From Prochlorococcus marinus str. MIT 1013 (GTDB lineage: Bacteria > Cyanobacteriota > Cyanobacteriia > PCC-6307 > Cyanobiaceae): a stretch of 64,000 nucleotides of DNA. Of the stretch, positions 938 through 15,643 are shown piece by piece; positions within the stretch are counted from its first letter, which is position 1; every line of letters starts with the position of its first letter. The notes below the pieces were generated by a model that was given only the letters and a program-made list of their open reading frames with translations, made no database searches and had not been told where the DNA came from. Position numbers and translations under genes: made by a program. Location: the NCBI RefSeq assembly GCF_027359395.1, contig NZ_CP114778.1:1860001-1924000 (forward strand). Reading direction: 5' to 3'.

Positions 938-997
938 TGTTAGGCATGTCTTGTTGATGATTGGTCTTGTGGCGTGTAACTACGTTTTTATTGTTGA

Positions 998-1031: not shown

Positions 1032-1090
1032 CTTCTCTCGCTAAATATAAACTAATTAACTCTTAGAAACTAGGCGTGGAAAGGGATTTA

Positions 1091-1099
1091 TGCTATAAT
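1091..1099 (+). promoter_or_regulatory. Extended -10 promoter of the excisionase/integrase operon
   Basis: TGCTATAAT is a perfect TATAAT hexamer with the TGn extension, about 80 bp before the first start codon. No good -35 is visible, as expected for an extended -10 promoter. It would drive 1177-2645. Confidence 0.5.
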
Positions 1100-1176
1100 A
1101 GCAGTATTAGATGCGAAGAGAAGGATCTTTAAGGTTTAATTAGCGTCTCTAATTCTTTATTCTAAGTTAATTGATT

Positions 1177-1404: not shown

Positions 1405-2645
1405 TGCCTATTAGTGCAAGACAGATTAATAAAGCAATATCAGGAACGCTATCAGTTGAAAAGGGAAGTAGTTGCTATTTGCTTGTTAAGGGCAAGAGCA
1501 AAAGATTCTATGGGGTAACAAATATCGGATCGTCAGGTAGACGAAAGTACAAAGTTTATTTGGGTTATTGGCAGAAGGATTTCAACTCATCGGATAAAGT
1601 CCTTCAGCAATGGAATGAGATGAAAACTTGGGGTCTGGAAAATAATTGTGATCTCAGAAGATATGGGGAACGTTTTAATGTCAACAAATCAGAGGTGACA
1701 TTGAAAAAAGTTGTTGATCTTTTTATTCAACATAAAACCCATCATCAAAAATCTGATTCCAGTAAAACTTTCAGAAATCGTTTTGATCGCATCCTTCGGC
1801 GATTGCCTGATGGGATATTGGTTGACGACCTCGCTGGTTATGAAGGAACTCAGTTCATAAAAGAAAAAGTTCTTGATCCTGATGTTGCTCAAGGAAAAAT
1901 TCCAACTGCAAAAAGATACAGGCAAATGTTGAACAATCTTTTTAACTATGCGGTCGCTGATCGCTTGGTGCATCCAGAGCAAATTCCATACCGTTTAGAT
2001 ATGCAGTTCCCTTTTGAGAGTGAACATAAATCCAGACCACATCCACATCTTTCTTGGAACGATTTCAGCGGTTTCCTGCAAGTGCTTAATCTGAACCCAT
2101 GCAATGCTGATCGTCTTACTGATCTATCAACAAAGGCAGTTCTGTTGATGCTTACAAGGGTCTCTACCGTGGTAAGTATGCAATGGGACTGGTTCGATGC
2201 AGATAAAGATTGCTGGGTTATACCTTCCGAAACAACAGGTCTAAAAAGAAAAAAAGGTGATATAAAAAATCACCATTACATTCCAAATACTCCTCAATTG
2301 AGCAGGTTGATGGACTCATTGCGTCAAATCAATAGGAATGAAAAATATGTTTTTTACAGTCCATACAAAGGTCGTTATCCTTATGTCTCAAAGCAGACGC
2401 CAAATGATCATTTGAAGAATCTTGGTTATCAAGGCAGGCAAGATGTTCACGGTTTCAGGCACGTTGCAACTAACGCATTGGTGGATAAGTGTGAAATGGA
2501 TGAGCGTATGGTTTCTCGTTGTTTAGGGCATCTCCATAAAGATGGTTCTATTGGTCACTATGACTTTGCCGAAAGAATTAAACCAAGAAAAGTGGTTCAC
2601 GAATGCTGGAACCAGTTGTTAGATGATGAAGGATTGAGCGTCTAG
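1404..2645 (+). CDS. int: Tyrosine recombinase (site-specific integrase)
   Basis: A 413-residue phage-type integrase that would catalyse recombination between the tRNA-Thr attachment sites. Catalytic residues in order: Arg near residue 252 (LMLTRVSTVV), a beta-hairpin Lys near 288 (GDIKNHHYIP), HGFRH with His/Arg near 349 and 352, His near 376 (CLGHLHKDGS) and the nucleophile Tyr near 386 (GHYDF). The N-terminal 100 residues contain a DUF4102-like or arm-binding region, followed by a SAM-like core-binding domain. A longer start at 1365 overlaps the upstream gene deeply and lacks reason. ATG 1404 is coupled to the excisionase stop. All catalytic residues are present, so the enzyme looks active. 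Confidence 0.88.
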   Translation: MPISARQINKAISGTLSVEKGSSCYLLVKGKSKRFYGVTNIGSSGRRKYKVYLGYWQKDFNSSDKVLQQWNEMKTWGLENNCDLRRYGERFNVNKSEVTLKKVVDLFIQHKTHHQKSDSSKTFRNRFDRILRRLPDGILVDDLAGYEGTQFIKEKVLDPDVAQGKIPTAKRYRQMLNNLFNYAVADRLVHPEQIPYRLDMQFPFESEHKSRPHPHLSWNDFSGFLQVLNLNPCNADRLTDLSTKAVLLMLTRVSTVVSMQWDWFDADKDCWVIPSETTGLKRKKGDIKNHHYIPNTPQLSRLMDSLRQINRNEKYVFYSPYKGRYPYVSKQTPNDHLKNLGYQGRQDVHGFRHVATNALVDKCEMDERMVSRCLGHLHKDGSIGHYDFAERIKPRKVVHECWNQLLDDEGLSV

Positions 2646-2917
2646 GCAGCAGCATCATTGATTTGATGCTCTATTAATTCCCAATCATTAGAGAGAAGTT
2701 CATTCCAAGTCTCATGAGCAGATTCATAATCCAATCTTCTTGTGTTCTTTAATTTGGTTGGTATGCCTTCTTCGGTGCAATACCAGAGTTGAGTGAAGAC
2801 AGTCGGAGCAACCATGACCGATTTGGGATCACGAATAAAGAACAGACAAAAATCTCTTGTTGGTGCAACTAACCATCCTGTTGGTGTTGGCAATGCTTCT
2901 CTGATTGGTTGATTCAT
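2642..2917 (-). CDS. DUF1651-type small cyanobacterial protein
   Basis: A 91-residue protein with the pattern GWLVAPTRDFCLFFIRDPKS, an LWYCTEEG centre, then TRRLDYESAHETWNELLSNDWE. This resembles the DUF1651 family, which is restricted to marine picocyanobacteria and has no known function. It overlaps the end of the convergent integrase by 4 bp. A truncated second copy lies at 11027-11160. A Shine-Dalgarno-like GGAGAG precedes the ATG. Membership of DUF1651 is recalled from family pattern and not searched. Confidence 0.6.
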   Translation of the reverse strand: MNQPIREALPTPTGWLVAPTRDFCLFFIRDPKSVMVAPTVFTQLWYCTEEGIPTKLKNTRRLDYESAHETWNELLSNDWELIEHQINDAAA

Positions 2918-2943
2918 ACTTCTCTCCTTTAATTCAAGGCATC

Positions 2944-2982
2944 AAAAAAGCACCTTGCTCACTGGTATTACGCAGGTGCTTT
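2944..2982 (-). terminator. Terminator below the 3219-9199 operon
   Basis: Stem AAAGCACCT (2947-2955) / AGGTGCTTT (2974-2982) with an 18-nt loop. On the minus strand it is followed by six T and then GATGCC. It would end transcripts coming from the nuclease operon after the hairpin element at 3061-3203. Confidence 0.55.
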
Positions 2983-3060
2983 ATGAGTTAGGACTGCTTG
3001 CGTGAGGAATGTCCTAGTACAGATATACTATTAAGATTATTCGGAGTCGTCAAGTGATTT

Positions 3061-3203
3061 GCATTAAGGAAGGCAAACTGCTGCTTCAGCGACCTTGAGT
3101 GCCTTCCTCTGCCCAACAGAACATTTGCCTGAGGAGTTGTTCTGCTTTTCCTTTTCTAATCAAAAAACAAAGTGGTAGACATCAAGAAAAACTCCTAATT
3201 AGT
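3061..3203 (-). repeat. Structured intergenic element, copy i (two hairpins, anti-SD loop)
   Basis: On the minus strand, directly after the stop of the gene at 3219-4961, come a 7-bp stem CAGAACA / TGTTCTG with loop ACTCCTCAGGCAAA, then a stem AGGAAGGC / GCCTTCCT enclosing CTCAAGGTCGCTGAAGCAGC. The same layout recurs at 9511-9660 after another minus-strand gene. Stem sequences differ while pairing is kept and the enclosed sequence is conserved, which points to a selected structure. It could be a 3' UTR-derived sRNA or a processing/termination element. Confidence 0.55.
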
Positions 3204-3218
3204 ACTTGGGTATAAAAG

Positions 3219-4961
3219 TCATAACTGAGATTTAATTCCTTCTGCCCATGCTTTCCATTCCTGATCTTCTGCAGGTATCCATCCTCTTCGGAATTTCTGG
3301 ATCATTTTATCTAAATTTAAATTCGTAAGTGTTCTCATTCTCCACATCCCACACTGTTCATTCTCGATCCAAATATCAAAGTATTGATCAGCAAAACACC
3401 AGATTTCTTTTCTAGTAGACGGACGCGACCAACTCATATCATCTTTGGATCTTAGAAATTTATATATCTCTTCTAAGTATCCATTTCTCCTTGCTGCGTC
3501 GTAAGCGCCATTATTGGCATCGACAAATTCAGAACGGTCAGTACATGATCTAGCAAACTCAACAATTTTCTTTTTTTTCCATGTATGTGCCTTTTCAATC
3601 GACCGCATATGAGTACATGCTTTATCTAATAATCTTTGAGTACAAGCAGCATCATAAATTCTTGGACTTTTCTTTTTGAATTCTCCTCTTGTTGCATATT
3701 TTTTTGCTTCAGCAAAAATTATTTCATCTGTATGGATTCTCCTATCTGTACCGGTTCGCCCAAGTTGCTTTTCATCATTTAGCAATATAAATCCTTTACG
3801 TTGATATTTTTTGAACCATTTAAATTCTGCTTCCTTAACCTGACTTGAATCAAACAAATAATCAGTAAGTTGAATAAACTCAGTGTCTTTTAAATTTGTG
3901 ATTGCTTTTGAACTAGCAGTATTATTCTCACTTTTATGACCTTCCATTCTTGCATTAAATAATTGCCTAGTTATTCCTACATAAGCAAGGTTTTTTCTTT
4001 TATTTAAAATTACATAAATGCAATGATTATAACCATCAGCATGAGATTTCATATGTGAGCATATTTCATCTAACCAACCATTCTTTAATGCTGCGTTATA
4101 AGCACTACCGAATTCCTTTTGAAATTCATTTCTATAATGATATTTACTTGCTTTCTCTTTACATTTTTCTATCGTCCAATAACCATGAGGGACTAATAAT
4201 CTATCCATCTTTTTAACCACCTCTGTAAGGTATCCATTCTTGCAAGCATAAAGATAAGCACCTTTTTTTTCGGTTCTGAATTTTTTTAGTGATTTATATT
4301 GTTTTGCTACTTCCATTAACATTGATTTAGTCCAATATATTGATTTCATATGTGCACATACTTCATCGACTATTCCATATCTTTTTGCTGCTTTATATGC
4401 TCCATATGCTCCTTTTTGAAACTTTTTTCTCCCGTTATATTTTAATGCTTCTTGTTTAATACTTTCTGGGTCCCATTTTTCTGAAAACTTTGGTTTCATA
4501 TGACTACATATTTCATCCATTATTCCCAATTTATATGCTGCTCTTACAGCACCTTTAAATTCTCTTGCAAAGTCTTTTCTACGATCAAATTTTAATGCTT
4601 CTTCTCTAATACTTTTTTCGTCCCATTTTCTTGATTCCCTTTTAGGCATATGTTCGCAAATATCATCTATTATTCCTAATTTTCTTGCTGCTCCATACGC
4701 ACTACGACAACCTGACTGAAATTTACCTCTTGAGTCGTATTTTAATGCTTCTTCTTTAATACTTTTTGCATCCCATTTTCTTGTTGAACCTTTTGGCATA
4801 TGAGCGCAAACTTGATCAATAATTCCAAGTTTTAATGCTGCCTGATATGCACCTGCGGTGCCTTTTTCAAAGTCAGATCGTCGATCGTATTTCAGTGCCT
4901 CTTTCTGGATAATTTCATGTGTCCATTTTCTTGGTTTGCTTTTTCGTTCTATTCGTTTCAT
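3219..4961 (-). CDS. GIY-YIG nuclease domain embedded in eight helical repeats
   Basis: A 580-residue protein with six tandem repeats of about 43-48 residues (pattern W..ksI..EAlkYd.R..F.kg..gAY.AArklGiiDeiC.HM), then a GIY-YIG-type domain near residues 310-400 (IYVILNKRKNLAYVGIT, Arg and His of RMEGH), then two more repeats and a basic Trp-rich tail. GIY-YIG domains are nickases or nucleases found in homing enzymes, restriction enzymes and phage proteins. The repeats probably bind DNA. It is the last gene of a minus-strand operon and starts 18 nt after the PD-(D/E)XK gene. The catalytic Glu is not obvious by eye (a Glu lies at the QVKEAEFKW segment). Homing or defence roles are both possible. 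Confidence 0.65.
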   Translation of the reverse strand: MKRIERKSKPRKWTHEIIQKEALKYDRRSDFEKGTAGAYQAALKLGIIDQVCAHMPKGSTRKWDAKSIKEEALKYDSRGKFQSGCRSAYGAARKLGIIDDICEHMPKRESRKWDEKSIREEALKFDRRKDFAREFKGAVRAAYKLGIMDEICSHMKPKFSEKWDPESIKQEALKYNGRKKFQKGAYGAYKAAKRYGIVDEVCAHMKSIYWTKSMLMEVAKQYKSLKKFRTEKKGAYLYACKNGYLTEVVKKMDRLLVPHGYWTIEKCKEKASKYHYRNEFQKEFGSAYNAALKNGWLDEICSHMKSHADGYNHCIYVILNKRKNLAYVGITRQLFNARMEGHKSENNTASSKAITNLKDTEFIQLTDYLFDSSQVKEAEFKWFKKYQRKGFILLNDEKQLGRTGTDRRIHTDEIIFAEAKKYATRGEFKKKSPRIYDAACTQRLLDKACTHMRSIEKAHTWKKKKIVEFARSCTDRSEFVDANNGAYDAARRNGYLEEIYKFLRSKDDMSWSRPSTRKEIWCFADQYFDIWIENEQCGMWRMRTLTNLNLDKMIQKFRRGWIPAEDQEWKAWAEGIKSQL

Positions 4962-4979
4962 ATGTTTTTATCATTCCTA

Positions 4980-5831
4980 CTAAAACAAACTTCCTTGAGA
5001 GTCATCACCACGATCAATTCCATCAGGATGAACTGCTCTTGCATATTGATCTGAGTAAGCACAGTTCTTACAACTCTCATGAGGTTGTGGGATCTGGTGC
5101 TGATTCATGAGAGAAACCATTTCATCAATCTCTTCTTCTATCCAACTCATATCCCAGTTGTAAGGAATTAGATACTCATCAAAGTTCATTGTTTTATGGA
5201 ATCCGTCTTCCTCTCTTTTGGCATTGCAGACCAAGAAGTAAGCAGTCGGATGAACTTCAAAACCCATTCCTGAAAGTAGATAGGAATAGAAGTCCATTTG
5301 GGTTTTGTATCCCTGATGGTATGGATCATCTAGATATTCTCTTTTATCAACCAGTCCACTCTTTGCTTGTGATTTGTAGTCAACAACGATCAATTGATTG
5401 GTACGAGTGTCTTGCCAAATATCGTCTACTCCTCCAGTCAAAATAATGTTTGTATCCTTGTGCCGAAGCATCAATCCATGGTGAAGAGAGTCCCTCCACT
5501 TATCCATCTGAGGATGATCAAAAGGAACGACATGACCTAAACCATTAGGAGCAAAAAGTCTGTGAGGAATCTGCCGATGTCTGCACTCATCAAACTCTTT
5601 TTTAAGTAATCGGTCAGTGGTTTCATTGAGAGTCCAACCTGGTGTTCCTGGAGGGTCTAAACCTTTGACACGATTGAGATAAAAGCATCTAGGACAGGAA
5701 AGAAAATCAGAGAATTTACCTCTACTTATTTTGAAGTCTTCTTGTTGATGAGGTGAATAGATCGATGATGCTTTGACTCTGCATCCAGTTGCTTTCACAA
5801 ATCCTTTTTTGTTTCTTTTGAGATCGATCAT
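4980..5831 (-). CDS. PD-(D/E)XK nuclease, Cas4/AddB-like with probable Fe-S cluster
   Basis: A 283-residue protein with the RecB-family nuclease motifs: GGVDDIW (metal-binding Asp), IVVDYKSQAK (D-x-K catalytic pair) and QGYKTQMDFYSYLL (Q-x(3)-Y motif). An N-terminal SCPRCFY and a C-terminal CKNCAY provide four cysteines, the arrangement of the 4Fe-4S cluster in Cas4 and AddB. There is no CRISPR array or other cas gene nearby, so it is a solo Cas4-like exonuclease, a kind often found in phages and mobile elements. It starts 3 nt after its upstream neighbour, so co-translation is likely. Confidence 0.75.
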   Translation of the reverse strand: MIDLKRNKKGFVKATGCRVKASSIYSPHQQEDFKISRGKFSDFLSCPRCFYLNRVKGLDPPGTPGWTLNETTDRLLKKEFDECRHRQIPHRLFAPNGLGHVVPFDHPQMDKWRDSLHHGLMLRHKDTNIILTGGVDDIWQDTRTNQLIVVDYKSQAKSGLVDKREYLDDPYHQGYKTQMDFYSYLLSGMGFEVHPTAYFLVCNAKREEDGFHKTMNFDEYLIPYNWDMSWIEEEIDEMVSLMNQHQIPQPHESCKNCAYSDQYARAVHPDGIDRGDDSQGSLF

Positions 5832-5834
5832 CGT

Positions 5835-6371
5835 TTAACCGTCATAGAAACTTTCAATGGTGAAACCTTCTTCATCAAGCAATTTTCGATTGAATCCATA
5901 AAGACCTTCTAAGACAACTTTGGAATCTTTCTCTTTCAAATAAACCATCTCTTGTTCAATATCATTTTCTTGATCTACTAATTGAACAAATGAAGGGATG
6001 GTAAAACTATAAGTTCCATTTGTTAATTGCTCTGTCTCTACGTCTATCCATTCACCCGCACAACTGATCTCTTCATCAAAGTCATCTTTGTGCTTTTCAT
6101 AAACCTCTTGAGTCATGCATCCTGTAATTTCATGCTCATCAAATGAGGTCTGGTAATAATTGTCTTTGTACTTCAGAACTACAAATAGATCCTCTCCGTA
6201 AGAGATAGGTTCATCCAAGGGATATTCAATTTGTTTGCATCCTTGATAAGGGTTGTTCTCGTGCTCACATTGATTACCTAATCCATCCGTATTGTTCACG
6301 TCGAGATTGTTGAACTGATCTACAAGTTCATTGAATGTTGATGGATAAGGTTTACGAGATTGATTAGTCAT
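5835..6371 (-). CDS. Hypothetical acidic protein in nuclease operon
   Basis: About 178 residues, strongly acidic and not recognised. Four cysteines (CEHENNPYQGC, TGCMTQ, SCAGEW) could be structural. Two ATGs are possible: 6380 lies only 1 nt from the GGAGG sequence, while 6371 has it about 9-10 nt upstream, so 6371 is preferred. Either start overlaps or abuts the upstream stop (6373-6375). The tight placement between two other acidic or nuclease genes suggests a partner protein. Acidic composition would fit a DNA mimic or inhibitor but nothing proves it. Confidence 0.6.
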   Translation of the reverse strand: MTNQSRKPYPSTFNELVDQFNNLDVNNTDGLGNQCEHENNPYQGCKQIEYPLDEPISYGEDLFVVLKYKDNYYQTSFDEHEITGCMTQEVYEKHKDDFDEEISCAGEWIDVETEQLTNGTYSFTIPSFVQLVDQENDIEQEMVYLKEKDSKVVLEGLYGFNRKLLDEEGFTIESFYDG

Positions 6372-6372
6372 A

Positions 6373-6972
6373 TCAATCATCCCTCCAAGTAGATGATTCC
6401 TTGCAGCAGTCTTCGTACCTCAGTCCCCAATAATCTGCGATCTCTTCATAAGTAAACCAAGAGGATCCTTCTATCCATTTCAAATCCCAAGGATTTACAT
6501 AGACCATATTCATTACTGATTGCACCATCATTGGTTCTTTAAAACCAAGTTCTTCAATGTATTCTTCTGCCGAATCACTATCTCCATATGTGATCTCTTC
6601 ATTTACGTAATCAATATCGAAATCAACTAATTCTGTCCCTTCATAGAATTCCTTATTTGCCTCTACAAGTCTTTTAGGGACATAAACAATTCCTGTGTGG
6701 TCATCACTGATTACTAATCGGTCTTTGTAAATATCAAAGAAATTATCTTCGTCTTTATGAGTAGCACTATGATTTTTCTCTGCCTCATCGATTGCTTTCT
6801 TTAGGTGATCAACTAAAGGAATCTTTTTCCCTTGATCATCGATATGAAAATAACCAAGTGCTAGGGCAATTGAACTTTCATCTTGACCATCAAGGTCTTC
6901 CATAACGGAGGCAAGATAATCACCTTTGCATACCTTATTTAAATCATCAGGTTCAAAAGTTTTTGGTGTCAT
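6373..6972 (-). CDS. Hypothetical acidic protein in nuclease operon
   Basis: A 199-residue soluble, acidic protein with no recognised domain. Visible traits are a HLKKAIDEAEKNH helix, a beta-rich middle (RLVISDDHTGIVYVPKRL) and an aromatic C-terminal part (SSWFTYEEIADYWGLRYEDC) which resembles a small helix-turn-helix-like or Cys-containing tail. The ATG overlaps the stop of the upstream TPR gene by 4 nt (ATGA), so translation is coupled. It has base composition like its neighbours. Confidence 0.6.
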   Translation of the reverse strand: MTPKTFEPDDLNKVCKGDYLASVMEDLDGQDESSIALALGYFHIDDQGKKIPLVDHLKKAIDEAEKNHSATHKDEDNFFDIYKDRLVISDDHTGIVYVPKRLVEANKEFYEGTELVDFDIDYVNEEITYGDSDSAEEYIEELGFKEPMMVQSVMNMVYVNPWDLKWIEGSSWFTYEEIADYWGLRYEDCCKESSTWRDD

Positions 6973-8288
6973 TTGTTCCTCAGTGAGTTAATCATCTTGT
7001 TTACCTCAACCTCTTGTGCAGTTCCTTTGATCTCAGATGATTGAGAGTAATCCTCCAAAACTTTAAGTGCTTTTTCATCACCCATTTCTGCTGCTTTGAA
7101 TATTGCATCGAAAGACCCTTGCAGATCTCCAATCTTTAATTTGCTAGTACCTAATAAATAATAAGGAAATGCATCACAGTCAGGATTGAGTTCTAATCCT
7201 TTCTCTAAATCAGCAATAGCACTTTGGTAATCCTCTAAACAATATTTACTAAATCCTCTACCAAAATATGATGGAGAAATATCATCCCCATTATCATGAT
7301 TATCTATAACAAAACTATAATCAATAATCGCACCTTGATGATCTCCTAGGGATTGTTTATTTTTAGCAAGATCATAATAAATTTCTTCGTCATTTTGATC
7401 AGACTCCAGTATCTTATTCAGATCAAAGATTGCACCCTTATAATCTTCCAAATTTCTTTTAACTATTGATCTATTAATATAGGCATCTCTATAATCTGGA
7501 AGTATTTCTATGATTTTATTATAATCTTTAAGTGCTTCATTGTAATTATTTAAATCGCAGTAAGTTGAACCCCTATTCATTAAAACTATATGGTCTGTCG
7601 GAACAATATTTAATGCAATATTGAAATCATTAATTGCACCTTGATAGTCTTCAGTTAAAGATCGAGCATACCCACGACTATTCAATATCTGTATATTTTC
7701 TGGTTCTATTGAAAGAGCATTTGTATAATAATTTATTGCTTGATCTATGTTTCCTTTAGACTCTAATTGACGACCAATAGAATATAATTCTTGGACACTA
7801 CTAGGTGATAATTTATCTTCTAATTCTGTCTCAAAATTTTCACGACTTGTTTTTCTTTCTCTATTTACTGATGGTTGACAAAGTAAATACCAAATATATA
7901 AACCTATTGATACTTTAATTAAACCAAAAACCCCTGATCTTGGTAAGAAGATTGCATACCACCATAGAAAACTCTTTCCTGCATCATTTAGTCTTCGTAA
8001 AGAGAGAGTATAAAATGGTGCAAATGCTATTGAATAAGTCAATACTCTTAAAACAGAATAGAGAGAAGAATTGATTGACTTTATAAACTCACCTTGGAAA
8101 GGTTGTAAGTATAAAATTATCAAATAATAGATTAAAGCATTGAAAATTATCCCAGGTAAATATAAGAAGAAATCCTTTCGAGATACAAATTTCTCAGTAT
8201 TTAAAATATCAATAAATGGAATAAGATAATATCTAAATATTTTTTTAAATCTATTTCTTTTTTTGTCGTTCATAGATTTCATTTGCAA
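6969..8288 (-). CDS. DUF805 membrane domain fused to TPR repeats
   Basis: A 439-residue protein. Residues 20-140 hold three to four hydrophobic helices with the DUF805 signature LSLRRLNDAGKSFLWW, then about eight TPR units (for example DYQGAINDFNIALNIVPTD, NYNEALKDYNKIIEILPDYRD, DYKGAIFDLNKILESDQND). TPRs mediate protein binding, so this could be a membrane-anchored scaffold. The start overlaps the upstream gene's stop by 10 nt. Alternative ATGs at 8282 and 8273 would shorten it by 2 or 5 residues. Second gene of the operon. Confidence 0.75.
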   Translation of the reverse strand: MQMKSMNDKKRNRFKKIFRYYLIPFIDILNTEKFVSRKDFFLYLPGIIFNALIYYLIILYLQPFQGEFIKSINSSLYSVLRVLTYSIAFAPFYTLSLRRLNDAGKSFLWWYAIFLPRSGVFGLIKVSIGLYIWYLLCQPSVNRERKTSRENFETELEDKLSPSSVQELYSIGRQLESKGNIDQAINYYTNALSIEPENIQILNSRGYARSLTEDYQGAINDFNIALNIVPTDHIVLMNRGSTYCDLNNYNEALKDYNKIIEILPDYRDAYINRSIVKRNLEDYKGAIFDLNKILESDQNDEEIYYDLAKNKQSLGDHQGAIIDYSFVIDNHDNGDDISPSYFGRGFSKYCLEDYQSAIADLEKGLELNPDCDAFPYYLLGTSKLKIGDLQGSFDAIFKAAEMGDEKALKVLEDYSQSSEIKGTAQEVEVNKMINSLRNK

Positions 8289-9199
8289 TTCTCCTCCACT
8301 AATTTCGCAGCATCTTCCTCTCCTAGTTCTGCTGCTTTCTTCCAGTCCTCACAAGCACCTTTCATATCCCCAAGTGCATTTTTAGCATCCCCTCTTTCCT
8401 TATAGTTATATTCATCTGTACCCCTAAAATCTTCTGTATTGGTGTCGACTTTGATTGCTTCCGTTAAATAATAAATTGCCTCTTTATATTCTCCTTCTGA
8501 TAATTTTTCTCCTCCTGCTTCACTCCAAGTTTCCCATGTATGAATAGGTTTTTTTAATCCACAATGTTCCATCAATAATTCATCTGCCCAAACATAATCA
8601 GATTCATATACCTTATTCCATGCTTCACAAGCACCCTCTAGATCTCCTAATTCTTTTTTTGCTTTACCTACTTGCAAAAGAGCATCAAGTTTAGGACCTT
8701 CATCTGCCCAATAAGTCTTTTCATATGCCTCTTGGAAATATTTAACTGCCCCTTTAAAGTCTTTTTCTTTAAATTTTTTATCACCAATTTCATATAACTG
8801 CAGACTAGTAGGTTCATCTTCTATGACATCTTCTCCAGAATCTTCTGAGTTTCCTGCAGACCTTGAGACTCCTTTTGCTTCTAAGAGTGCTTCGTAAAAA
8901 GCAGTGAAATAAAGACGTTCACCTCCATCTTTTTTAGTCCCTACATAACCACACTCTCTAACCAGGTCTGACTTGCTGACATCCCCAAGTGATTCAACTT
9001 TCTCTAATAACTCTTTCCCTGTAAGTCTTCCTGAAGAGATGTTGGAATCTTCTTTATCCTTCAACGCAATCATCAATCCTGCACCGACAACAACAGCAGT
9101 CGATCCAACAACAAGATCCTTATTAACTTTCAGCAGAGATAAACCAGTCGCAGTCGCAGCACCTATTCCTAAAGCAATCGCAGTATTTCTAAGTTTCAT
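8279..9199 (-). CDS. TPR protein with N-terminal membrane anchor
   Basis: A 306-residue protein and first gene of the minus-strand operon. Residues 5-46 form one or two hydrophobic segments (TAIALGIGAATATGLSLL and VVGSTAVVVGAGLMIAL). A linker follows, then TPR or Sel1-like repeats (KFKEKDFKGAVKYFQEAYEK, KLSEGEYKEAIYYLTEAIKV, GDMKGACEDWKKAAELGEED). The C-terminal repeat type GD..GAC.DWkkAAeLGeedA is common in cyanobacterial TPR proteins. It probably acts with the next gene at the membrane. A 10-bp inverted repeat sits about 90-130 bp upstream and may be its operator. Confidence 0.7.
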   Translation of the reverse strand: MKLRNTAIALGIGAATATGLSLLKVNKDLVVGSTAVVVGAGLMIALKDKEDSNISSGRLTGKELLEKVESLGDVSKSDLVRECGYVGTKKDGGERLYFTAFYEALLEAKGVSRSAGNSEDSGEDVIEDEPTSLQLYEIGDKKFKEKDFKGAVKYFQEAYEKTYWADEGPKLDALLQVGKAKKELGDLEGACEAWNKVYESDYVWADELLMEHCGLKKPIHTWETWSEAGGEKLSEGEYKEAIYYLTEAIKVDTNTEDFRGTDEYNYKERGDAKNALGDMKGACEDWKKAAELGEEDAAKLVEENCK

Positions 9200-9287
9200 C
9201 TAGTCAGACTAGTTCTTCTAACTTTAAAGAGATCAACCAGTTCTTCAACGATTCAATTTTTACAAGTAATAAATCACTGACTTTGAT

Positions 9288-9327
9288 TGAAGGTGTATAA
9301 AAAAGCAAGATATTTTGTACACCTTCA
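9288..9327. promoter_or_regulatory. 10-bp inverted repeat upstream of the TPR-nuclease operon
   Basis: TGAAGGTGTA (9288-9297) and TACACCTTCA (9318-9327) are perfect inverted copies, 30 bp centre to centre, which is about three helical turns. They flank an AT-rich spacer that on the minus strand contains TATACA, a possible -10. Located 89-128 bp upstream of the operon's first ATG, this looks like a dimeric repressor operator. Confidence 0.45.
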
Positions 9328-9376
9328 CTTGGACCGATATGACTAATGTTTGGGTGTATTGGAATACTGTATAAAA

Positions 9377-9670
9377 ATGATATTCAAATCAGATAAGGGA
9401 AAATCCTTTACGCAAGAGGAAGCAATAGATCTAATGGTTTCATTGAGTGCAACTGACGCAAATTCAGAAAAGAAGTGGAGAGGTTTCCATCTCTCTTTTA
9501 ACGAATTCTTGGCATTAAGAAAGGGACCCTGCTGCATCAGCGACCTTGAGTCCCCTTCTTTCTCTGTCGACAGAACTAATACTGGTAAGGAGTTGTTCTG
9601 CTTTTGCTTTTCTAATCCAATCAACAAAGATAAGAATCGGAAATTATTCCTAATTAGCAATCAGCGTTAG
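9377..9670 (+). other. Weak ORF overlapping repeat ii (possible gene fragment)
   Basis: A plus-strand frame of about 97 codons. The first 45 residues (MIFKSDKGKSFTQEEAIDLM...) look protein-like, but the rest runs through the structured element at 9511-9660 and into the 3' end of the opposing gene. It may be the remnant of a small gene interrupted by the repeat. Low confidence as a functional gene. Confidence 0.22.
9511..9660 (-). repeat. Structured intergenic element, copy ii
   Basis: Second copy of the element at 3061-3203, again directly after a minus-strand gene (9654-10136). Minus-strand features: stem CAGAAC / GTTCTG with loop AACTCCTTACCAGTATTA, then stem AAGGGGA / TCCCTTT (approx.) enclosing CTCAAGGTCGCTGATGCAGC, which is nearly identical to copy i. 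The second stem differs in sequence from copy i yet still pairs. Confidence 0.5.
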
Positions 9671-10136
9671 CAATGCCCATACCAAGAACAGCACCTAAAG
9701 GAATAGACCATCCATAAGCATCTTTCTTAGATAGTGCAGCAGCAAGACCACCACCAAGCAATCCTCCTGTGGTTGCACTACTTGAACTACAACTTCCACC
9801 GCTGGATGTATAACTCCGAGAAACTAAAACTTGTCGGTGAGTTGGTCTGTAATACCTGCGATGAGTGTGAGGGGAAGAATGAGCGTGATTATGGTGATGA
9901 CGATAATTACGAACTGGTGAATTCCAACTAAGTGAAGAGCAAGGGACTTCAACTTTATCCAGATAGGACTTCACATAACCTTTGGATGATCTTGTCCCAG
10001 CAACATATTCCTCTTTATAAATTTCCTTGTAGCAAGAGCGTTGAGTTGTATATCCCCTCTGGTGATGGTATCCTTCTGCCATTGCTGCCATGGGAGACAG
10101 AAGCATTGCAGTTAGAACTAATGGTTGGATTCTCAT
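9654..10136 (-). CDS. Secreted His/Ser-rich protein with glycine-zipper end
   Basis: A 160-residue protein with a clear signal peptide (MRIQPLVLTAMLLSPMAAMA, cleavage before EGYHH). The middle is rich in His, Tyr and Arg (RHHHNHAHSSPHTHRRYY), which might bind metal. The C-terminal 45 residues (GGLLGGGLAAALSKKDAYGW, then GAVLGMGIANADC) resemble the glycine-zipper of 17-kDa surface antigens and insert in or along the outer membrane. Periplasmic or outer-membrane location is expected. It is followed by structured element copy ii. Confidence 0.65.
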   Translation of the reverse strand: MRIQPLVLTAMLLSPMAAMAEGYHHQRGYTTQRSCYKEIYKEEYVAGTRSSKGYVKSYLDKVEVPCSSLSWNSPVRNYRHHHNHAHSSPHTHRRYYRPTHRQVLVSRSYTSSGGSCSSSSATTGGLLGGGLAAALSKKDAYGWSIPLGAVLGMGIANADC

Positions 10137-10284
10137 CGCTTACATTTACCTCTAATACAAACATAGGATTAGTCTTCCGTGATATCCAATAACTTAGACA
10201 CTACATAAATTGATTGATCTATTGGAAGGCAGGACTTTTAAAAAAATATGGGTCTTCTCTACTTAAATTTTTTCCAGACTCAAA

Positions 10285-10383
10285 TCAACCAACTGAAGCA
10301 AATACTGGGAGACCGACTGTTGCTGTACCTGCAACAAAAGCAGCGAAGATAAGGAAAGGAAGTAAAGGGTATTTCTTGATCAT
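10285..10383 (-). CDS. Small single-TM protein (32 aa)
   Basis: ATG at 10383 opens a 32-codon frame, MIKKYPLLPFLIFAAFVAGT then ATVGLPVFASVG. It is one hydrophobic helix with a basic N-terminus, which orients it N-in. Too short to recognise. The opposite strand has a 67-codon frame that looks like its shadow. Confidence 0.45.
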   Translation of the reverse strand: MIKKYPLLPFLIFAAFVAGTATVGLPVFASVG

Positions 10384-10475
10384 ATTTAAAATTAAGTTTA
10401 AACCATCTTATAAGTAATTTTACTCAACCGTGCCTTTTTGTGGGTCAGTCTAAAGTTTTTCCCTACTCTAATTTT

Positions 10476-10793
10476 TTAATCATCAAAATAAGAGCATGTG
10501 TAGTTTACTAATTCTGAAACCTCTAAACAAAATGAAGAATTTTTGGGGACATTAAAATCCATACCCTCAGTTATTAATGTCCAATCTTTATCACCTGCAA
10601 TTTTTACATTTAGTTTTCCAGAGTGGATTTCCATGACTTCTCTTGACGCAGTTTTAAATTCATATCCACCCTCCAACATCACTCCTAATGTTTTTTTTGA
10701 ACCATCTTTAAAAAAAATGTTCCGACTAACAACTTTACCTTCAAAATAAATATTTGCTAATTTATCAACATCTACATTTTGATAGTTATCCAT
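10476..10793 (-). CDS. ppnP: Pyrimidine/purine nucleoside phosphorylase PpnP (YaiE family)
   Basis: A 105-residue single-domain cupin of the DUF1255/PpnP family (usual length about 94). Diagnostic segments are FEGKVVSRNIFF, TLGVMLEGGYEFKTASREVM, SGKLNVKIAGDKDW and GMDFNVPKNSSFCLEV. PpnP cleaves nucleosides with phosphate to give base and ribose 1-phosphate. In an integrative element it could salvage nucleosides or act on nucleotide pools. Monocistronic on the minus strand by the look of it. Confidence 0.8.
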   Translation of the reverse strand: MDNYQNVDVDKLANIYFEGKVVSRNIFFKDGSKKTLGVMLEGGYEFKTASREVMEIHSGKLNVKIAGDKDWTLITEGMDFNVPKNSSFCLEVSELVNYTCSYFDD

Positions 10794-10841
10794 TTAGAAA
10801 TCCCTGAGTCTAATTTTCTAATCACTAATCATAATCTATAG

Positions 10842-11027
10842 ATGTTGAATTTCATTTATGCACTTGTTATCCCAGTACTGATCTTGGGATTGCTTTATCT
10901 ATTCATCATTGAAAATAATGGTCTTCCAGATTGGATGGAGCGTGTCTCAAGAAATAGTGGTTCCGTTTGGACTTATGGAATTATTGCCATCGCCCTAGTT
11001 GGAATTCTTAGATATCTGATTCGATGA
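10842..11027 (+). CDS. Small two-TM membrane protein
   Basis: A 61-residue protein with hydrophobic segments at residues 4-23 (FIYALVIPVLILGLLYLFII) and 43-58 (VWTYGIIAIALVGILRYL), joined by a charged loop NGLPDWMERVSR. Family not recognised. Its stop overlaps the degraded DUF1651 fragment on the other strand. Confidence 0.5.
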   Translation: MLNFIYALVIPVLILGLLYLFIIENNGLPDWMERVSRNSGSVWTYGIIAIALVGILRYLIR

Positions 11028-11160
11028 CTAAGCAGCAGCATCACTTATCTGATGTTCCATTAGTTCCCAATCTTGAGTTAAGAGTCCATGCCAAGTTTCT
11101 ATAGCAGAATCGAGATGAAGTCTTCTTGAATTTTTTAATTTGGTTGAAGTGCCTCCCTTT
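11027..11160 (-). pseudogene. Truncated DUF1651-type gene fragment
   Basis: The minus strand matches the 3' half of the intact gene at 2642-2917 base for base over long stretches: the GCAGCAGCATCA end, TTCCCAATC, CCAAGT, AATCTTCTTG and TTTAATTTGGTTG blocks are shared. The 5' half is missing and the reading frame has no start. This is a duplicated, decayed copy. Confidence 0.65.
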
Positions 11161-11214
11161 GCTTACAGAATTATTGTTTAGTTGATTATCTTTAGAAGTA
11201 TCTGAATTGCTCTT

Positions 11215-11415
11215 ATGGCAAGAACTGAAAATGATCTTGATATCTACTATGCAGTAGGAAATGCCAATACTTCTAGGCAGGAAACTGAAATTGGAGAAAT
11301 CATCAAAAAAAGAAATTCATTGGGATGGAAATTAGTTTCTACCAGTACTGCTGTTGTTGATACGAGCAAACAATTCTCGAACCTCTATCTTTTTTGGGAA
11401 AAACAATATGAGTAA
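11215..11415 (+). CDS. Small protein, DUF4177-like
   Basis: A 66-residue protein ending GWKLVSTSTAVVDTSKQFSN and LYLFWEKQ. A central GWKLVS...LYLFWEK pattern is typical of the small DUF4177 alpha/beta fold, whose function is unknown. The next ORF starts 8 nt before its stop, so the pair may be coupled. Family call is tentative. Confidence 0.5.
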   Translation: MARTENDLDIYYAVGNANTSRQETEIGEIIKKRNSLGWKLVSTSTAVVDTSKQFSNLYLFWEKQYE

Positions 11416-11551
11416 GAGAAAAGAGAATTTCAATGTGACACAGGGCATGACCTTGTTACTTCTTAAAAAACTTTCATTGCCTGCAAACCTAGTTTTTCAA
11501 CTAATTCTCTTTATTACTGATCCTGAAAACAATATTGGGTATGAAGATTAA
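11408..11551 (+). CDS. Small hypothetical protein (47 aa)
   Basis: ATG 11408 overlaps the end of the previous gene by 8 nt. The protein is MSKRKENFNVTQGMTLLLLK followed by a short hydrophobic part and NNIGYED. Not recognised. It is followed by a strong terminator at 11558-11593, which supports a transcribed unit 11215-11551. Confidence 0.4.
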   Translation: MSKRKENFNVTQGMTLLLLKKLSLPANLVFQLILFITDPENNIGYED

Positions 11552-11557
11552 TAGGCA

Positions 11558-11593
11558 CAAAAAAACCGCCCAGTTCTGTTAGGGCGGTTTCTT
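11558..11593. terminator. Bidirectional terminator
   Basis: Stem AAACCGCCC (11563-11571) / GGGCGGTTT (11582-11590), loop of 10 nt. The T-run is strong on the minus strand (seven T) and weak on the plus strand (TTTCTT). Confidence 0.7.
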
Positions 11594-11730
11594 CGTGAGA
11601 TCAGGCGTAAGTGTTTCCTTGTTTCCACTACGGAGGATCTCGACTCCTCACATGTAGAACTTACCGGAACGGGATTAGTAATAAACCTCTAGCAGGTGGG
11701 TTTGAAGATTGGCACATCGATTGAAGGCAC

Positions 11731-11796
11731 TAAAAAAGCACCCTATTGGATGCTCATTCAGCACAGAACTATGTGTGAGGAGTTGTTCTGTGTCTC
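11731..11796 (-). ncRNA. Putative Yfr1-like small RNA
   Basis: On the minus strand an 8-bp perfect stem CACAGAAC / GTTCTGTG (11792-11785 with 11769-11762) closes a 15-nt loop AACTCCTCACACATA. The loop holds ACTCCTCACAC, the 11-nt motif known to be conserved in cyanobacterial sRNA Yfr1. A terminator follows: stem AGCATCC / GGGTGCT then six T. TATACA at 11808-11803 is a well placed -10 with a predicted start near 11796, giving an RNA of about 65 nt. The stem is shared with copies i and ii (3061, 9511). TCCTCACACAT in the loop is perfectly complementary to the ribosome binding site of the porin gene at 58942-59946. Whether it is expressed is unknown. Confidence 0.55.
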
Positions 11797-12002
11797 TATT
11801 CTTGTATACGAAGACGAAGATAGCAATAGCACAAATATTTTCTTGAAAATTGGTGTTCCAAAAAGGGGACGGTAATCAAACTTAGAGAATGTTCACTTTG
11901 ATATTATTGAAAATCCAGGATAAAAGAGTTTTAGTGTTCCAATAAGACTGTTTGGTTGGTAAAATAATGACATATGCAATTCAATAAGAAACACCATAGT
12001 TT

Positions 12003-12647
12003 ATGGAACAGATGAAAACACAAACAAAGTTCCAAAGAAAAAAACCACTATTCAGAGATAGACCTGAATACAAGTGCATTGGATATGCGCGCCAAAGTAC
12101 GAATAAACAAATCTCTATTGGCGCTCAAGTTGAAGAGTTGAAAAAGGCAGGTTGCGTTGTTGTATTCCAAGAGACTGTCTCAAGTGCGGACAAAGCAAGA
12201 CCACAATTCGAGGCAGCATTAAGAACCCTTGAAGAGGGAGATGAAATCGTATTCACCAAGTTGGATAGAGGTTTTAGAAATCAGAGGCAATGCATCAATA
12301 CCCTCCATGACCTTCAAGAAAAAGGGATCCATGTAAGAACAACAGATGGAATGATCAACACCAGAGCACTGGGAAAATTTGCTCCAATTATGATTGGTCT
12401 TTTAAGTGGAATCGGAGAAGTTGAGCGTCAAATGGTGATTGAGAGAACGCAAGAATCGATTAACCACAGAAGAGAGACAGGAGGAAATCTTGGCGGAAGA
12501 CCAAAGACAAACAACGAGAAAGAAGGTTTGGTATTGCGTCTAAGAGAGGAAGGTTGTTCTTACAGATCAATCAGGAAACAAACTGGACTTGCTTTATCAA
12601 CCATTAGAAGAATTATTGTTGAGCAAGATGTGGTGATAGAAGTATGA
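12003..12647 (+). CDS. Serine recombinase (resolvase/invertase family)
   Basis: A 214-residue small serine recombinase. GYARQSTNKQ carries the nucleophilic Ser, the second catalytic block is FTKLDRGFRN, and GEVERQMVIERTQESI leads into the E-helix. A C-terminal HTH (CSYRSIRKQTGLALSTIRRI) binds DNA. Such enzymes resolve multimers or invert DNA and are common on plasmids, phages and islands. ATGA overlap couples it to the next gene. It is the element's second recombinase, in addition to the tyrosine integrase. Confidence 0.85.
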   Translation: MEQMKTQTKFQRKKPLFRDRPEYKCIGYARQSTNKQISIGAQVEELKKAGCVVVFQETVSSADKARPQFEAALRTLEEGDEIVFTKLDRGFRNQRQCINTLHDLQEKGIHVRTTDGMINTRALGKFAPIMIGLLSGIGEVERQMVIERTQESINHRRETGGNLGGRPKTNNEKEGLVLRLREEGCSYRSIRKQTGLALSTIRRIIVEQDVVIEV

Positions 12648-12838
12648 CCAAAGAGACAGAAATAATGAATGCAATGGATGAATGCGTGGTGAATGCTTGC
12701 GAGCGAATGAAAACTCTTAACCCTCAAGAGAGGTTCCACCTTTTGTGTGAGATGGGTGAGTGGATGTATAACCCTCTTTCTGAAGAGATAGAAGACGTAT
12801 TGATGGTTCCTAATTTTGGAGAGAAGGAAACGGCATGA
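12644..12838 (+). CDS. Small hypothetical protein in recombinase operon
   Basis: A 64-residue protein, mostly helical and acidic (MTKETEIMNAMDECVVNACE, PQERFHLLCEMGEWMYNPLS). Not recognised. Both ends overlap neighbours by 4 nt (ATGA), which indicates a translationally coupled chain behind the serine recombinase. Confidence 0.55.
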   Translation: MTKETEIMNAMDECVVNACERMKTLNPQERFHLLCEMGEWMYNPLSEEIEDVLMVPNFGEKETA

Positions 12839-13032
12839 CCGACAAAAACGTAGGGGGACTATCTGATTACATTGTCTTGAAGAAAGAGAAGGAAGTTGTT
12901 TTTTATTTGCATAATCCCTATCCAGATTGCTTGGAAATTCCAGCAATCATGAAGCAAAGATTCCCTGATGACTACAAATCAATAGTTACCAGTTCATTAG
13001 AGGAGTTCAAGAAATACAGAGGACAGGTGTGA
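12835..13032 (+). CDS. Small hypothetical protein, paralogue of the next gene
   Basis: A 65-residue protein with EKEVVFYLHNPYPDCLEIPA followed by FPDDYKSIVTSSLEEF. The downstream protein (13029-13217) has the same layout (KKEVVFHLKGTFPVQLEIPT, FPEGFKGVT, EETFYKLR), so the two arose by tandem duplication. Function unknown. ATGA overlaps on both sides. Confidence 0.55.
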   Translation: MTDKNVGGLSDYIVLKKEKEVVFYLHNPYPDCLEIPAIMKQRFPDDYKSIVTSSLEEFKKYRGQV

Positions 13033-13217
13033 TGACTCTTCCTCCTCACTTCATAGATGAAAAGAAGAAAGAAGTGGTCTTTCATCTCAAAGGAACCTTT
13101 CCAGTTCAGTTAGAAATTCCTACTTGGATGCAATCTTTTCCAGAAGGTTTTAAGGGGGTTACTTGTCGCTGTGAAGAAACCTTCTACAAGTTGAGAGCGA
13201 AAGTAAATGAAGGTTGA
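13029..13217 (+). CDS. Small hypothetical protein, tandem paralogue
   Basis: A 62-residue protein similar throughout to the preceding one. Shared residues include EVVF, LEIP, FP..(Y/F)K and EE(F). Not recognised outside this pair. The next small frame begins at 13207, overlapping its end by 11 nt. Confidence 0.55.
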   Translation: MMTLPPHFIDEKKKEVVFHLKGTFPVQLEIPTWMQSFPEGFKGVTCRCEETFYKLRAKVNEG

Positions 13218-13346
13218 ACTTACTTATTGCCAAGGAGGTAAGACATGGAAAGAAACAGTCCATGCCAACAACGTGACTGATGCAAAAAAATAGGAGAGGC
13301 ACGAAACCCCTCCATAAAAATCATTGCTGCTAATCCTTTGCCTTAA
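13207..13346 (+). CDS. Small protein interrupted at an A7 slippery run (frameshifted)
   Basis: ATG 13207 gives MKVELTYCQGGKTWKETVHA then NNVTDAKK and a TAG stop at 13291. The codons before the stop are GCA AAA AAA TAG, an A-AAA-AAA heptamer. Slipping back one base there continues as IGEARNPSIKIIAANPLP to a TAA at 13344-13346. The joined product ends in an (A)KKIGEARNPS..I..AN pattern seen in short picocyanobacterial proteins. Either a -1 frameshift or transcriptional slippage makes a 46-residue protein, or a base was lost and this is a recent pseudogene. Confidence 0.5.
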
Positions 13347-13354
13347 TACTTCTT

Positions 13355-13903
13355 CTATGCAACTGCCTTATGCTTATCCCATAAATTCTGGATATCGTCA
13401 GGGTGAGGGCAGCAATGAATATTGCCTTTCTTGTCTCCAACAAGTATCCATTTTTTTCCATTAGATAAACCAATCCCAATAGTAGATATAATTTCATCTA
13501 CTTGTTTCTTACTAAATAAATTTAAAAGTAGGTCTATTCCTTCATCAATATAAGGTTCTTTGATATCCCAAGTTCCTAAAGTTAGTTTATTTACATCTAT
13601 ACCAAGATCCATAGATTGATCTGATTTCTCCCAATCAGATAAGGTCTTTGACATTGGTGAATCTCCAATAACACATGCTATTTGGGTTTGACTTTGATTA
13701 AGAATTACTGATATATTTCCCATCTCACTTCTTGATTGTTTTTCGGGAAGAATAGCGAAACGAAGTAAGTAATGGTAATCATTAGTTAGACACATGAAAA
13801 CACTATTGTGAATATTTCCTTGCGTATCAGAATCTACCAAAGACAACATTTTTTTATTCTTCTCACGAAGATTTTTTACCTCATGCAAGTTTCCTTTTGG
13901 CAT
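13355..13903 (-). CDS. Hypothetical protein
   Basis: A 182-residue soluble protein with mixed helix and strand and no signal peptide. Segments such as FMCLTNDYHYLLRFAILPEK and TIGIGLSNGKKWILVGDKKG look like a folded alpha/beta domain. No family recognised. It stands alone on the minus strand, convergent with the recombinase operon. ATG at 13903. Confidence 0.5.
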   Translation of the reverse strand: MPKGNLHEVKNLREKNKKMLSLVDSDTQGNIHNSVFMCLTNDYHYLLRFAILPEKQSRSEMGNISVILNQSQTQIACVIGDSPMSKTLSDWEKSDQSMDLGIDVNKLTLGTWDIKEPYIDEGIDLLLNLFSKKQVDEIISTIGIGLSNGKKWILVGDKKGNIHCCPHPDDIQNLWDKHKAVA

Positions 13904-14609
13904 AGTTAAATTAGATAAAGTTGGATAAAATTAGTAAAATTAATCCTCACAATTGAGTCCAATATTTAAAAGATAAATTATGAGGTGATTATATTTTGAT
14001 TGACAAGTCGCTGAAGTAGTCTGACTGTGCTTAAGATGCCCCTAGCAGGGTCTTATTTTATTCAATTTGTATTGAAGAGGAATTACTTAGTTCATCCCTG
14101 TTTCAATACTTACATTATAACATGAAAATTGTTTTAAGGGCACTAAATTGGGTCAATTATGAATGTGGTATCCCTTTTTATAGCAACTAGTTTAAACCTT
14201 TTGTCTATAATTTTTAATATCATAATCTTACTGATATTGACTAAGTATATTTTTCATCATAACTAATCTATAAAGTGTTCCAGTCTGCAAGAAAAAATCT
14301 CAACCAGAAAAATTCTATTAATAAGAATTAGAATATATAATTGTTAGGAAAAGTTAATAATTGGTACGCTTTAAATACTTTATTTGTATAAATATTTCTG
14401 TTAGGTTTCAAGGGTTGTTCTAAAGACTTATAACTTAAACAACTAATAACCATGAGCGAAGCGAATCATTCCCGAAGGGAATGGATTTAAAAGCATTAAA
14501 TAAATAATATTGAGTTCTTTCTTTCTCGTGATCTTGGATAGCAGTTTATAAAGACGAATGAATTCAAGATCAATATCAATACAACGCAATTAAGACACAT
14601 TTACGACCA
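13904..14609. other. Intergenic stretch, about 700 bp, very AT-rich
   Basis: No convincing gene longer than 20 codons. It holds a weak hairpin GCCCCTAGCAGGGTC followed by T-rich sequence near 14035-14060 and, at 14453-14490, a short ATG frame (MSEANHSRREWI) that contains the perfect hairpin CATTCCC-GAA-GGGAATG (14467-14483). The rest looks like promoter and spacer sequence. An origin or att-like function cannot be excluded. Confidence 0.4.
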
Positions 14610-14789
14610 ATGTTTAATCCAGTATCTAATCAATTCCATATCACTTATAAAAAGCGTGAGGTTCCGATCTTGATCCCCATCGAACGACAGTTGTGTAAGG
14701 AGATGGGACTTACAAGAAGCGACCTACACAAGAATGCAATTAAACGCTTGTGGAACTCAAGGCAAGAAAAGCAACTGAAATTGGTATGA
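14610..14789 (+). CDS. Small ribbon-helix-helix-like protein (59 aa)
   Basis: A 59-residue basic protein. Residues 16-50 read KREVPILIPIERQLCKEMGL then TRSDLHKNAIKRLW, i.e. a short beta-strand followed by two helices, the pattern of MetJ/Arc (CopG) repressors. It is 7 nt upstream of a second RHH-like gene. It could regulate the element or act as an antitoxin-like DNA binder. No toxin partner is obvious. Confidence 0.5.
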   Translation: MFNPVSNQFHITYKKREVPILIPIERQLCKEMGLTRSDLHKNAIKRLWNSRQEKQLKLV

Positions 14790-14796
14790 GAGAACA

Positions 14797-14922
14797 ATGA
14801 AGCAAGTAAAAGTAAATCCTGTGAGATATCAAATGCTTACTGAACTAGCAAAGGGAAGCAGAATGAATATTGAGAATTATCTGGGCGAACTTATTGATTC
14901 GATCTATGCAAAGAAAAAGTGA
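14797..14922 (+). CDS. Small ribbon-helix-helix-like protein (41 aa)
   Basis: MKQVKVNPVRYQMLTELAKG followed by SRMNIENYLGELIDSIYAKK. A strand (KQVKV) and two helices are expected for a ParD/CopG-type fold. Directly behind the other RHH-like gene, so the two may form a heterodimer or a regulatory pair for the element's right end. Confidence 0.5.
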   Translation: MKQVKVNPVRYQMLTELAKGSRMNIENYLGELIDSIYAKKK

Positions 14923-14961
14923 ACTGATAATTGCCTTTGGTTTTGTCTTTTGATCTTCTAA

Positions 14962-15297
14962 TTAGTTGCTTCGGCAGAACCCATTCCCTTTGTACTGAGC
15001 ACCAGAAGGGCAAGATGTTCCGCTAGATCCACCACCACGTAAAAATTGTTTGTAATCGTTTGATTTGCAGAATCCATTCCCTTTGTACTGACTTCCGGAG
15101 GGACAAGCAGTTCCACTGTTCCCACCACCACGGAAGAACTGTTTCCCGTCAGATGAACTGCAAAATCCATTTCCTTTGTATTGACTTCCAGATGGACAGG
15201 CAGTGCCACTAGAACCTCCTCCTCTGAAAACTTGAGCAGAAGCAGAAGTTCCCAGAAAACTTGCGATAAGGATTAAGGGAAGAAAATATTTTTTCAT
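14962..15297 (-). CDS. Secreted protein with three CPSG/GNGFC repeats
   Basis: A 111-residue protein with a signal peptide (MKKYFLPLILIASFLGTSAS, cut before AQVFRGG). Three tandem repeats of about 30 residues follow, each FRGGGxSGTaCPSGsQYKGN then GFCxS. Two cysteines per repeat could form disulphides in the periplasm or outside the cell. The repeat is very similar in DNA sequence from unit to unit, which suggests recent expansion. It lies just inside attR. A decayed single-repeat copy lies just outside attL (635-771), so the gene marks the element's tRNA-proximal end. Function unknown. Confidence 0.65.
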   Translation of the reverse strand: MKKYFLPLILIASFLGTSASAQVFRGGGSSGTACPSGSQYKGNGFCSSSDGKQFFRGGGNSGTACPSGSQYKGNGFCKSNDYKQFLRGGGSSGTSCPSGAQYKGNGFCRSN

Positions 15298-15352
15298 TGG
15301 TTAATTCTTCAGACTTTCACCCAATCTAATCCTGAGTTTGCTTATAAATTCT

Positions 15353-15428
15353 TGGGGAACTTTTGGAGATTTTGGGGAACTTTTTTGGGGAACTTTTGGA
15401 TATTTCTGAGGAACTTTTAGGGAACTTT
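15353..15428. repeat. Right GGGGAACTTTT repeats (putative integrase arm sites)
   Basis: Five copies of (G)GGGAACTTT in the same orientation, at about 15354, 15373, 15385, 15409 and 15419, spaced 10-24 bp. The last two have single changes (GAGGAAC, AGGGAAC). They lie about 145-220 bp inside attR and mirror the two copies inside attL. Confidence 0.5.
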
Positions 15429-15510
15429 GATTTTGAATTTTTGGTGTATCCTGATATTCCCTGATGGTCTCCTTTCGGAACTTCCCTCTGATTGCAACGA
15501 CTTGGCATTA

Positions 15511-15535
15511 AAAAAGAGACCTCAAGAGGTCTCTT
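15511..15535 (-). terminator. Terminator of the tRNA-Tyr/tRNA-Thr transcript
   Basis: Stem AAGAGACCTC / GAGGTCTCTT with an AA loop. On the minus strand it is followed by a T-run and then AATGCC. It lies within the element, so the element brings its own terminator for the tRNA it repairs. Confidence 0.75.
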
Positions 15536-15571
15536 GATTGCGATTAAATCTCTTTGATGTCCCTCCGACGA

Positions 15572-15643
<72 letters not shown>

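Follow-up and report, generated by a model that had tools for sequence, protein, structure and literature searches.

Two described kinds of RNA come closest to the one analysed here. In canonical Yfr1, whose gene lies by trxA, the 11-nt motif ACUCCUCACAC stands between two stem-loops. In Yfr10 (with Yfr12 and Yfr18; Prochlorococcus MED4, RF02362), an expressed transcript that is induced in darkness, the Yfr1 motif is presented in the loop of a 5' hairpin followed by a terminator, a Yfr2-type RNA lies downstream, and the location is frequently an island. According to a 2008 paper (PMC2518516), Yfr10, Yfr12 and Yfr18 adjoin Yfr2, Yfr4 and Yfr5 and are complementary to them, ncRNAs are concentrated in islands, and Yfr10-type RNAs stand beside Yfr2-type RNAs, often in islands; a 2019 paper (PMC6778093) gives the motif in the loop as a property of Yfr10, reports antagonism by Yfr2 and two porins as Yfr1 targets, and places Yfr10 upstream of Yfr2 in HL strains. 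The Cyano-1 motif marks the Yfr2 family (PMC8400943). The RNA pair, its island location and the antagonism are already published (2008, 2019), and the RNA described below is not new in kind; an earlier note on this DNA had treated the motif in a loop as a departure from the known layout, a novelty that these accounts of Yfr10 (PMC6778093) and of pairs in islands (PMC2518516) remove.

The window, that is, the whole stretch of DNA analysed (64,000 nt of Prochlorococcus marinus str. MIT 1013), holds the following features:

916..15592, no strand assigned: putative integrated island, with 22-bp direct repeats (3' end of tRNA-Thr) and a tyrosine integrase
11552..11852 (approximate), minus strand: sRNA pair module, which recurs with similar edges in different contexts
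11593..11657, minus strand: Cyano-1 (Yfr2-type) RNA, carrying UGUGAGGAGU, complementary to the sRNA loop; terminator arms 11556-11597
11732..11796, minus strand: Yfr10-type sRNA, with hairpin 11792-11762, motif 11783-11773 in the loop and terminator 11755-11732
11803..11808, minus strand: TATACA, candidate -10 box, ending 10 nt before the stem
11850-11865 and 11931-11946, plus strand: two direct repeats TTNGTGTTCCAAWAAG, between sRNA and recombinase
12003..12647, plus strand: small serine recombinase, divergent from the sRNA and 220 nt from the motif
58942..59946, minus strand: porin gene, candidate target (Porin_4 25.7 bits, narrowly below its cut-off of 27; por_somb 46.6 of 100)

The earlier note had overlooked the Cyano-1 RNA directly downstream on the same strand, the remaining motif copies in the genome and the tRNA-Thr repeat that bounds the island.

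From its predicted structure, 11732-11796 on the minus strand looks like a hairpin-terminator sRNA gene of known marine cyanobacterial type. An 8-bp stem is formed on that strand by CACAGAAC (11792-11785) and GTTCTGTG (11769-11762); it carries the loop sequence AACUCCUCACACAUA, the full loop being AACTCCTCACACATA (11784-11770) with the exact 11-mer unpaired at 11783-11773. Directly after the hairpin come a terminator stem (11755-11736) and a T-run (11737-11732), and the fold of 11728-11800 reaches -25.5 kcal/mol (z -3.83), equalled by none of 200 shuffles. Coordinates and fold thus agree with the hairpin and motif proposed earlier, and the terminator is where it had been placed; the TATACA box is also present, at 10 nt before the stem rather than the 6-8 nt claimed, and a sigma-70 consensus scan reported no promoter at 11808-11803.

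We rejected an identification as canonical Yfr1, since both layout and genomic place are wrong: the motif does not lie between two stem-loops, and the gene sits in a putative island instead of by trxA. What the island sRNA has in common with Yfr1 is the exact 11-nt motif and the matching porin site; the canonical gene of this host, about which the note had asked, is a separate copy by trxA at 696061. The nearest Rfam family is Yfr10, at 27.1 bits below the RF02362 cut-off of 43 (a curators' threshold, not a biological trait), for which reason we write 'Yfr10-type' for the island copy; related copies exceed that cut-off in two of 41 genomes (45.9 and 44.0 bits). The motif unpaired in a hairpin loop, the terminator directly after the hairpin within an overall length of 60-80 nt (we used an approximate transcript of 66 nt in co-folding) and the Yfr2-type RNA directly downstream, as published for HL strains, all agree with Yfr10. 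The island copy differs from Yfr10 of MED4 in stem sequence and terminator as well as in its Rfam score, and the Yfr10-type RNAs treated here differ from it in occurring in several copies per genome, some of them adjoining a serine recombinase.

The downstream partner matches the Cyano-1 family (RF01701) over its full length (positions 1-69 of 69) at 58.8 bits against a cut-off of 41. After the stretch complementary to the loop, it reads GAGUC where most listed copies have GAGUU, which reduces its uninterrupted pairing with the adjacent sRNA from 12 pairs to 10: the predicted duplex of the window Cyano-1 and the loop has 10 bp and -5.5 kcal/mol, against 12 bp and -8.3 kcal/mol when the class A Cyano-1 found elsewhere in this genome is used. 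Classes A, B and C are labels of this analysis, assigned by stem and terminator; the window copy falls in class C.

The exact 11-mer occurs once in the window and six times in the 2.05-Mb genome (once for the reversed control), the six copies being one canonical Yfr1 beside the thioredoxin gene and five Yfr10-type copies with the motif in a hairpin loop; the same genome has six Cyano-1 matches, five of them over the cut-off. Across 41 genomes of the genus we counted 146 exact motif copies, six of them antisense inside Cyano-1. For 82 of the other 140, a Cyano-1 match follows on the same strand within 500 nt, in 77 of these pairs at a distance of 89-144 nt, and the pairs use 82 of the 128 Cyano-1 matches in the 41 genomes; of the 58 copies that have no such partner, only part are canonical Yfr1. 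Inspection of 30 motif loci gave 13 by the thioredoxin gene (canonical Yfr1), 15 with the Yfr10 stem and two with neither.

Conservation of the hairpin was assessed on 73 motif instances, from which two antisense in or near Cyano-1 were omitted; 58 of the remaining 71 were aligned, the 13 left out being 12 with the Yfr10 stem, mostly near-copies, and the second copy at L176, which has the motif but not the Yfr10 stem. Standard pairs filled 97.3% of stem cells in the 58 aligned copies, a figure that leans upward because this last copy was omitted, against 33.5-50.0% after sliding by one to three columns. Covariation within the genus is limited to one of the eight pairs changing on both sides, and two pairs never vary. 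That the loop is kept in other copies, on which the earlier note had staked its proposal, holds genus-wide, although the conservation is partly by construction because most loci were fetched for the exact motif; a check that started from Cyano-1 instead, on the same loci, gave 59 of 68 cores preceded by the hairpin, with the motif intact in 58. On this comparative evidence the predicted hairpin recurs throughout the genus and is not a chance structure.

The proposed mRNA target fared well. As had been claimed, the loop is perfectly complementary, over 11 bp, to the Shine-Dalgarno region of the porin gene, where ATGTGTGAGGA lies at 59951-59961, immediately before the ATG at 59946. No other of the 60 ORF starts in the window offered as good a site. 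The sequence TGTGTGAGGACAC precedes the ATG in all 29 porin homologs for which a start was found (30 loci examined), while bases further upstream vary; a Shine-Dalgarno constraint can account for no more than the AGGA part of this site. Genome-wide, TGTGTGAGGA occurs 12 times, namely, six times antisense to the sRNAs, three times at the starts of porin paralogs, which thus carry the site, and three times where no long frame starts nearby, and its reversed control was absent from the genome. The crowd of unrelated targets that would have weakened the proposal is accordingly missing, with only three exact 10-mer sites in the genome outside porin starts and sRNAs. Such comparisons make the porin start a well-supported predicted target of the Yfr1 motif. 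The fit of the loop to the porin site is -18.6 kcal/mol for the island copy and nearly as good for canonical Yfr1 (-17.1), and in co-folding with the window porin the island copy is weak (-1.8 kcal/mol) and canonical Yfr1 better (-9.3); the porin target is common to all Yfr1-motif RNAs and not private to the island, and since all of them fit the site, the contribution of the island copy is probably one of added dosage. Bases that follow the motif (11770-11773) vary between Yfr10 classes (CACACATA, CACACAATA), and these class-specific bases give 11 rather than 10 pairs with different porin paralogs, which may be chance.

Very probably, then, the locus holds the Yfr10-Yfr2 sRNA pair of marine picocyanobacteria in an island-borne copy, in which the loop would repress porin mRNAs and Cyano-1 would antagonise it. 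The sRNA would show ACUCCUCACAC in its loop and base-pair with mRNAs that contain UGUGUGAGGA, chiefly at the ribosome-binding site of porin genes, so that less protein is translated from them; transcribed immediately downstream, the Cyano-1/Yfr2 RNA would pair with the same loop and put the sRNA out of action. The predicted hairpin and terminator, the complementarity to porin start and Cyano-1 and the conservation of these elements are evident in the sequences; transcription, pairing, repression and antagonism are what published work on the MED4 homologs leads us to expect. Most likely the copy adds to the host pool of Yfr1-motif RNAs rather than serving a private function of the element.

The claim that the sRNA is island-borne stands on a 22-bp exact direct repeat, found in the same orientation at 916-937 and at 15571-15592 (the 3' end of tRNA-Thr), and on a tyrosine integrase (1365-2645; Phage_integrase 32.5 bits, cut-off 27.1) that adjoins the far repeat at 916-937; repeat and integrase together place the sRNA pair in a putative integrated island of 14.7 kb. 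With its tRNA 3'-end repeat and a tyrosine integrase at the far end, the island presumably belongs with tRNA-targeted, tycheposon-like integrative islands, its mobility being putative. It also encodes a Cas4-like PD-(D/E)XK nuclease (4980-5831; PF12705, 42.9 bits), and a protein very similar to it, compared by eye, lies near the recombinase in L260 (3260-4120). Defence cargo was considered and dropped, PADLOC having returned for seven island proteins only Cas4-like hits to a single nuclease and a weak match to a membrane protein. A phage origin was likewise unsupported in limited searches of viral sets: the exact 19-mer was absent from the viral contigs searched, blastn against phage records gave no match, and the search for the recombinase alignment in viral contigs with two peptide patterns yielded 16 stretches, none confirmed.

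The earlier note had supposed that the element uses the RNA to its own benefit, lowering porin to exclude phage or change permeability. The eleven-base complement to the porin start and the placement of the sRNA in an island are consistent with this, but the motif is also found in the canonical Yfr1 of the host and in four further Yfr10-type RNAs, genomes without a match to the recombinase (e.g., G001, G002 and G004) have the porin site as well, and neither module nor recombinase turned up in the limited searches of phage sets; we consider such a benefit very improbable.

What looks new here is the recurring pair module and its linkage to a serine recombinase, in this genus and in five other genera. 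The module, about 300 bp, consists of the sRNA pair with its promoter region (about 11552-11852) and was found in varied contexts. In 1,854 of 3,464 ordered comparisons among 60 loci, homology ended 0-15 nt past the Cyano-1 T-run; it ended 15-60 nt past the T-run in 13, before the T-run in 742, and further on or at the end of the sequence in 855. Upstream limits were less sharp: among the 17 class C loci, 127 of 272 comparisons ended 60-79 nt from the motif and 48 under 30 nt. One genome has a tandem copy of the module with the same edges. Such edges would fit a module that serves as a landing or crossover place for recombinases and island cassettes, the linkage then reflecting site choice rather than use of the RNA; in addition, the promoter-side edge (about 11850) coincides with the first TTNGTGTTCCAAWAAG repeat (11850-11865), and in other genera the unlinked copies mostly share the stem of the linked one. 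Edges at promoter and terminator could, however, also be explained by selection on a transcription unit, and we give site choice somewhat less than an even chance. As for the tandem copy, it adjoins an intact recombinase (G037; L104, L130), and the same contig holds, about 33 kb away, a second, mirrored module copy with a recombinase remnant.

The recombinase has a Resolvase domain and a PHROG annotation as DNA invertase. We examined 74 recombinase loci (28 of the genus, the best 26 of the family and 20 further), four of which gave no alignment, leaving 70; the start was extrapolated where the N terminus was missing, and two listed loci that proved to be one broken gene were counted once. In 11 of the 12 distinct genus loci of at least 67% identity, 118-240 nt separate the exact motif from the recombinase start, and in the 12th the contig stops at 188 nt. 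Genus loci further removed are mostly without the motif; one has it at 693 nt, and another has a form with one mismatch at 185 nt. The best 26 family loci include five, each in another genus, with the exact motif at 186-221 nt, two with a one-mismatch form and one more degraded. These other-genus copies have the same loop on other stems (CGACA/UGUCG in four, UGAGA/UCUCG in one), the shorter stem being predicted for the majority (the minimum-energy fold differs at L235/L261). In up to 1 kb downstream of the recombinase, the exact motif was found in none of the 70 loci. On a 63-row tree with 18 linked rows (three of them one-mismatch), linkage needed nine changes, compared with 15.9 for shuffled rows (none of 500 shuffles came as low), a result inflated by near-copies on a tree with many unresolved forks; such clustering does not show function. 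We saw no link between the recombinase and Yfr10 in the literature searched, in which subscription papers were mostly missing.

Similar placement, recurrence in five other genera, a constant loop on changing stems and the absence of the exact motif from the downstream stretches might mean that a recombinase-bearing mobile unit includes the sRNA as a functional component, employing it to alter host gene expression or to set the timing of the unit's own activity. Yet the motif is missing at that place in 19 of the 26 family loci and in all 20 further ones (for two of which the upstream sequence is too short), the majority of sRNA pairs in the genus stand apart from any such recombinase, the site repeats also accompany a recombinase that has no sRNA (L136), and we saw no site at the recombinase start that the loop would target. 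A working role of this kind strikes us as unlikely. Somewhat less so, though still doubtful, is the broader proposition that picocyanobacterial islands contain a conserved two-gene unit, made up of the small serine recombinase and a Yfr10-type RNA and maintained across genera with the stem rebuilt round a constant loop, which would plug islands into the host Yfr1/Yfr2 network and its porins.

That the TTNGTGTTCCAAWAAG repeats are the recombinase site is a guess. The same repeats occur in L136, with a 74%-identical recombinase (2849-3469) and no sRNA, on a contig labelled as a Euryarchaeota MAG and probably misassigned. Phase inversion of the sRNA by the recombinase was discarded, since apart from the two direct repeats there was just a doubtful inverted match, far off and no better than chance. 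A tRNA gene lies within the stretch in seven of 13 other-genus recombinase regions (L260-L272), tRNA-Ser(cga) in five, and recombinase islands seem to favour tRNA sites.

Reading the locus as an island-borne Yfr10-Yfr2 pair takes a riboregulator pair that was already known into a multi-copy, island-borne setting, and the comparisons lend strong support to the view that the Yfr1 motif has conserved targets at porin starts. If the recombinase linkage is functional, it would mean that mobile islands carry copies of a global regulatory RNA of their host.
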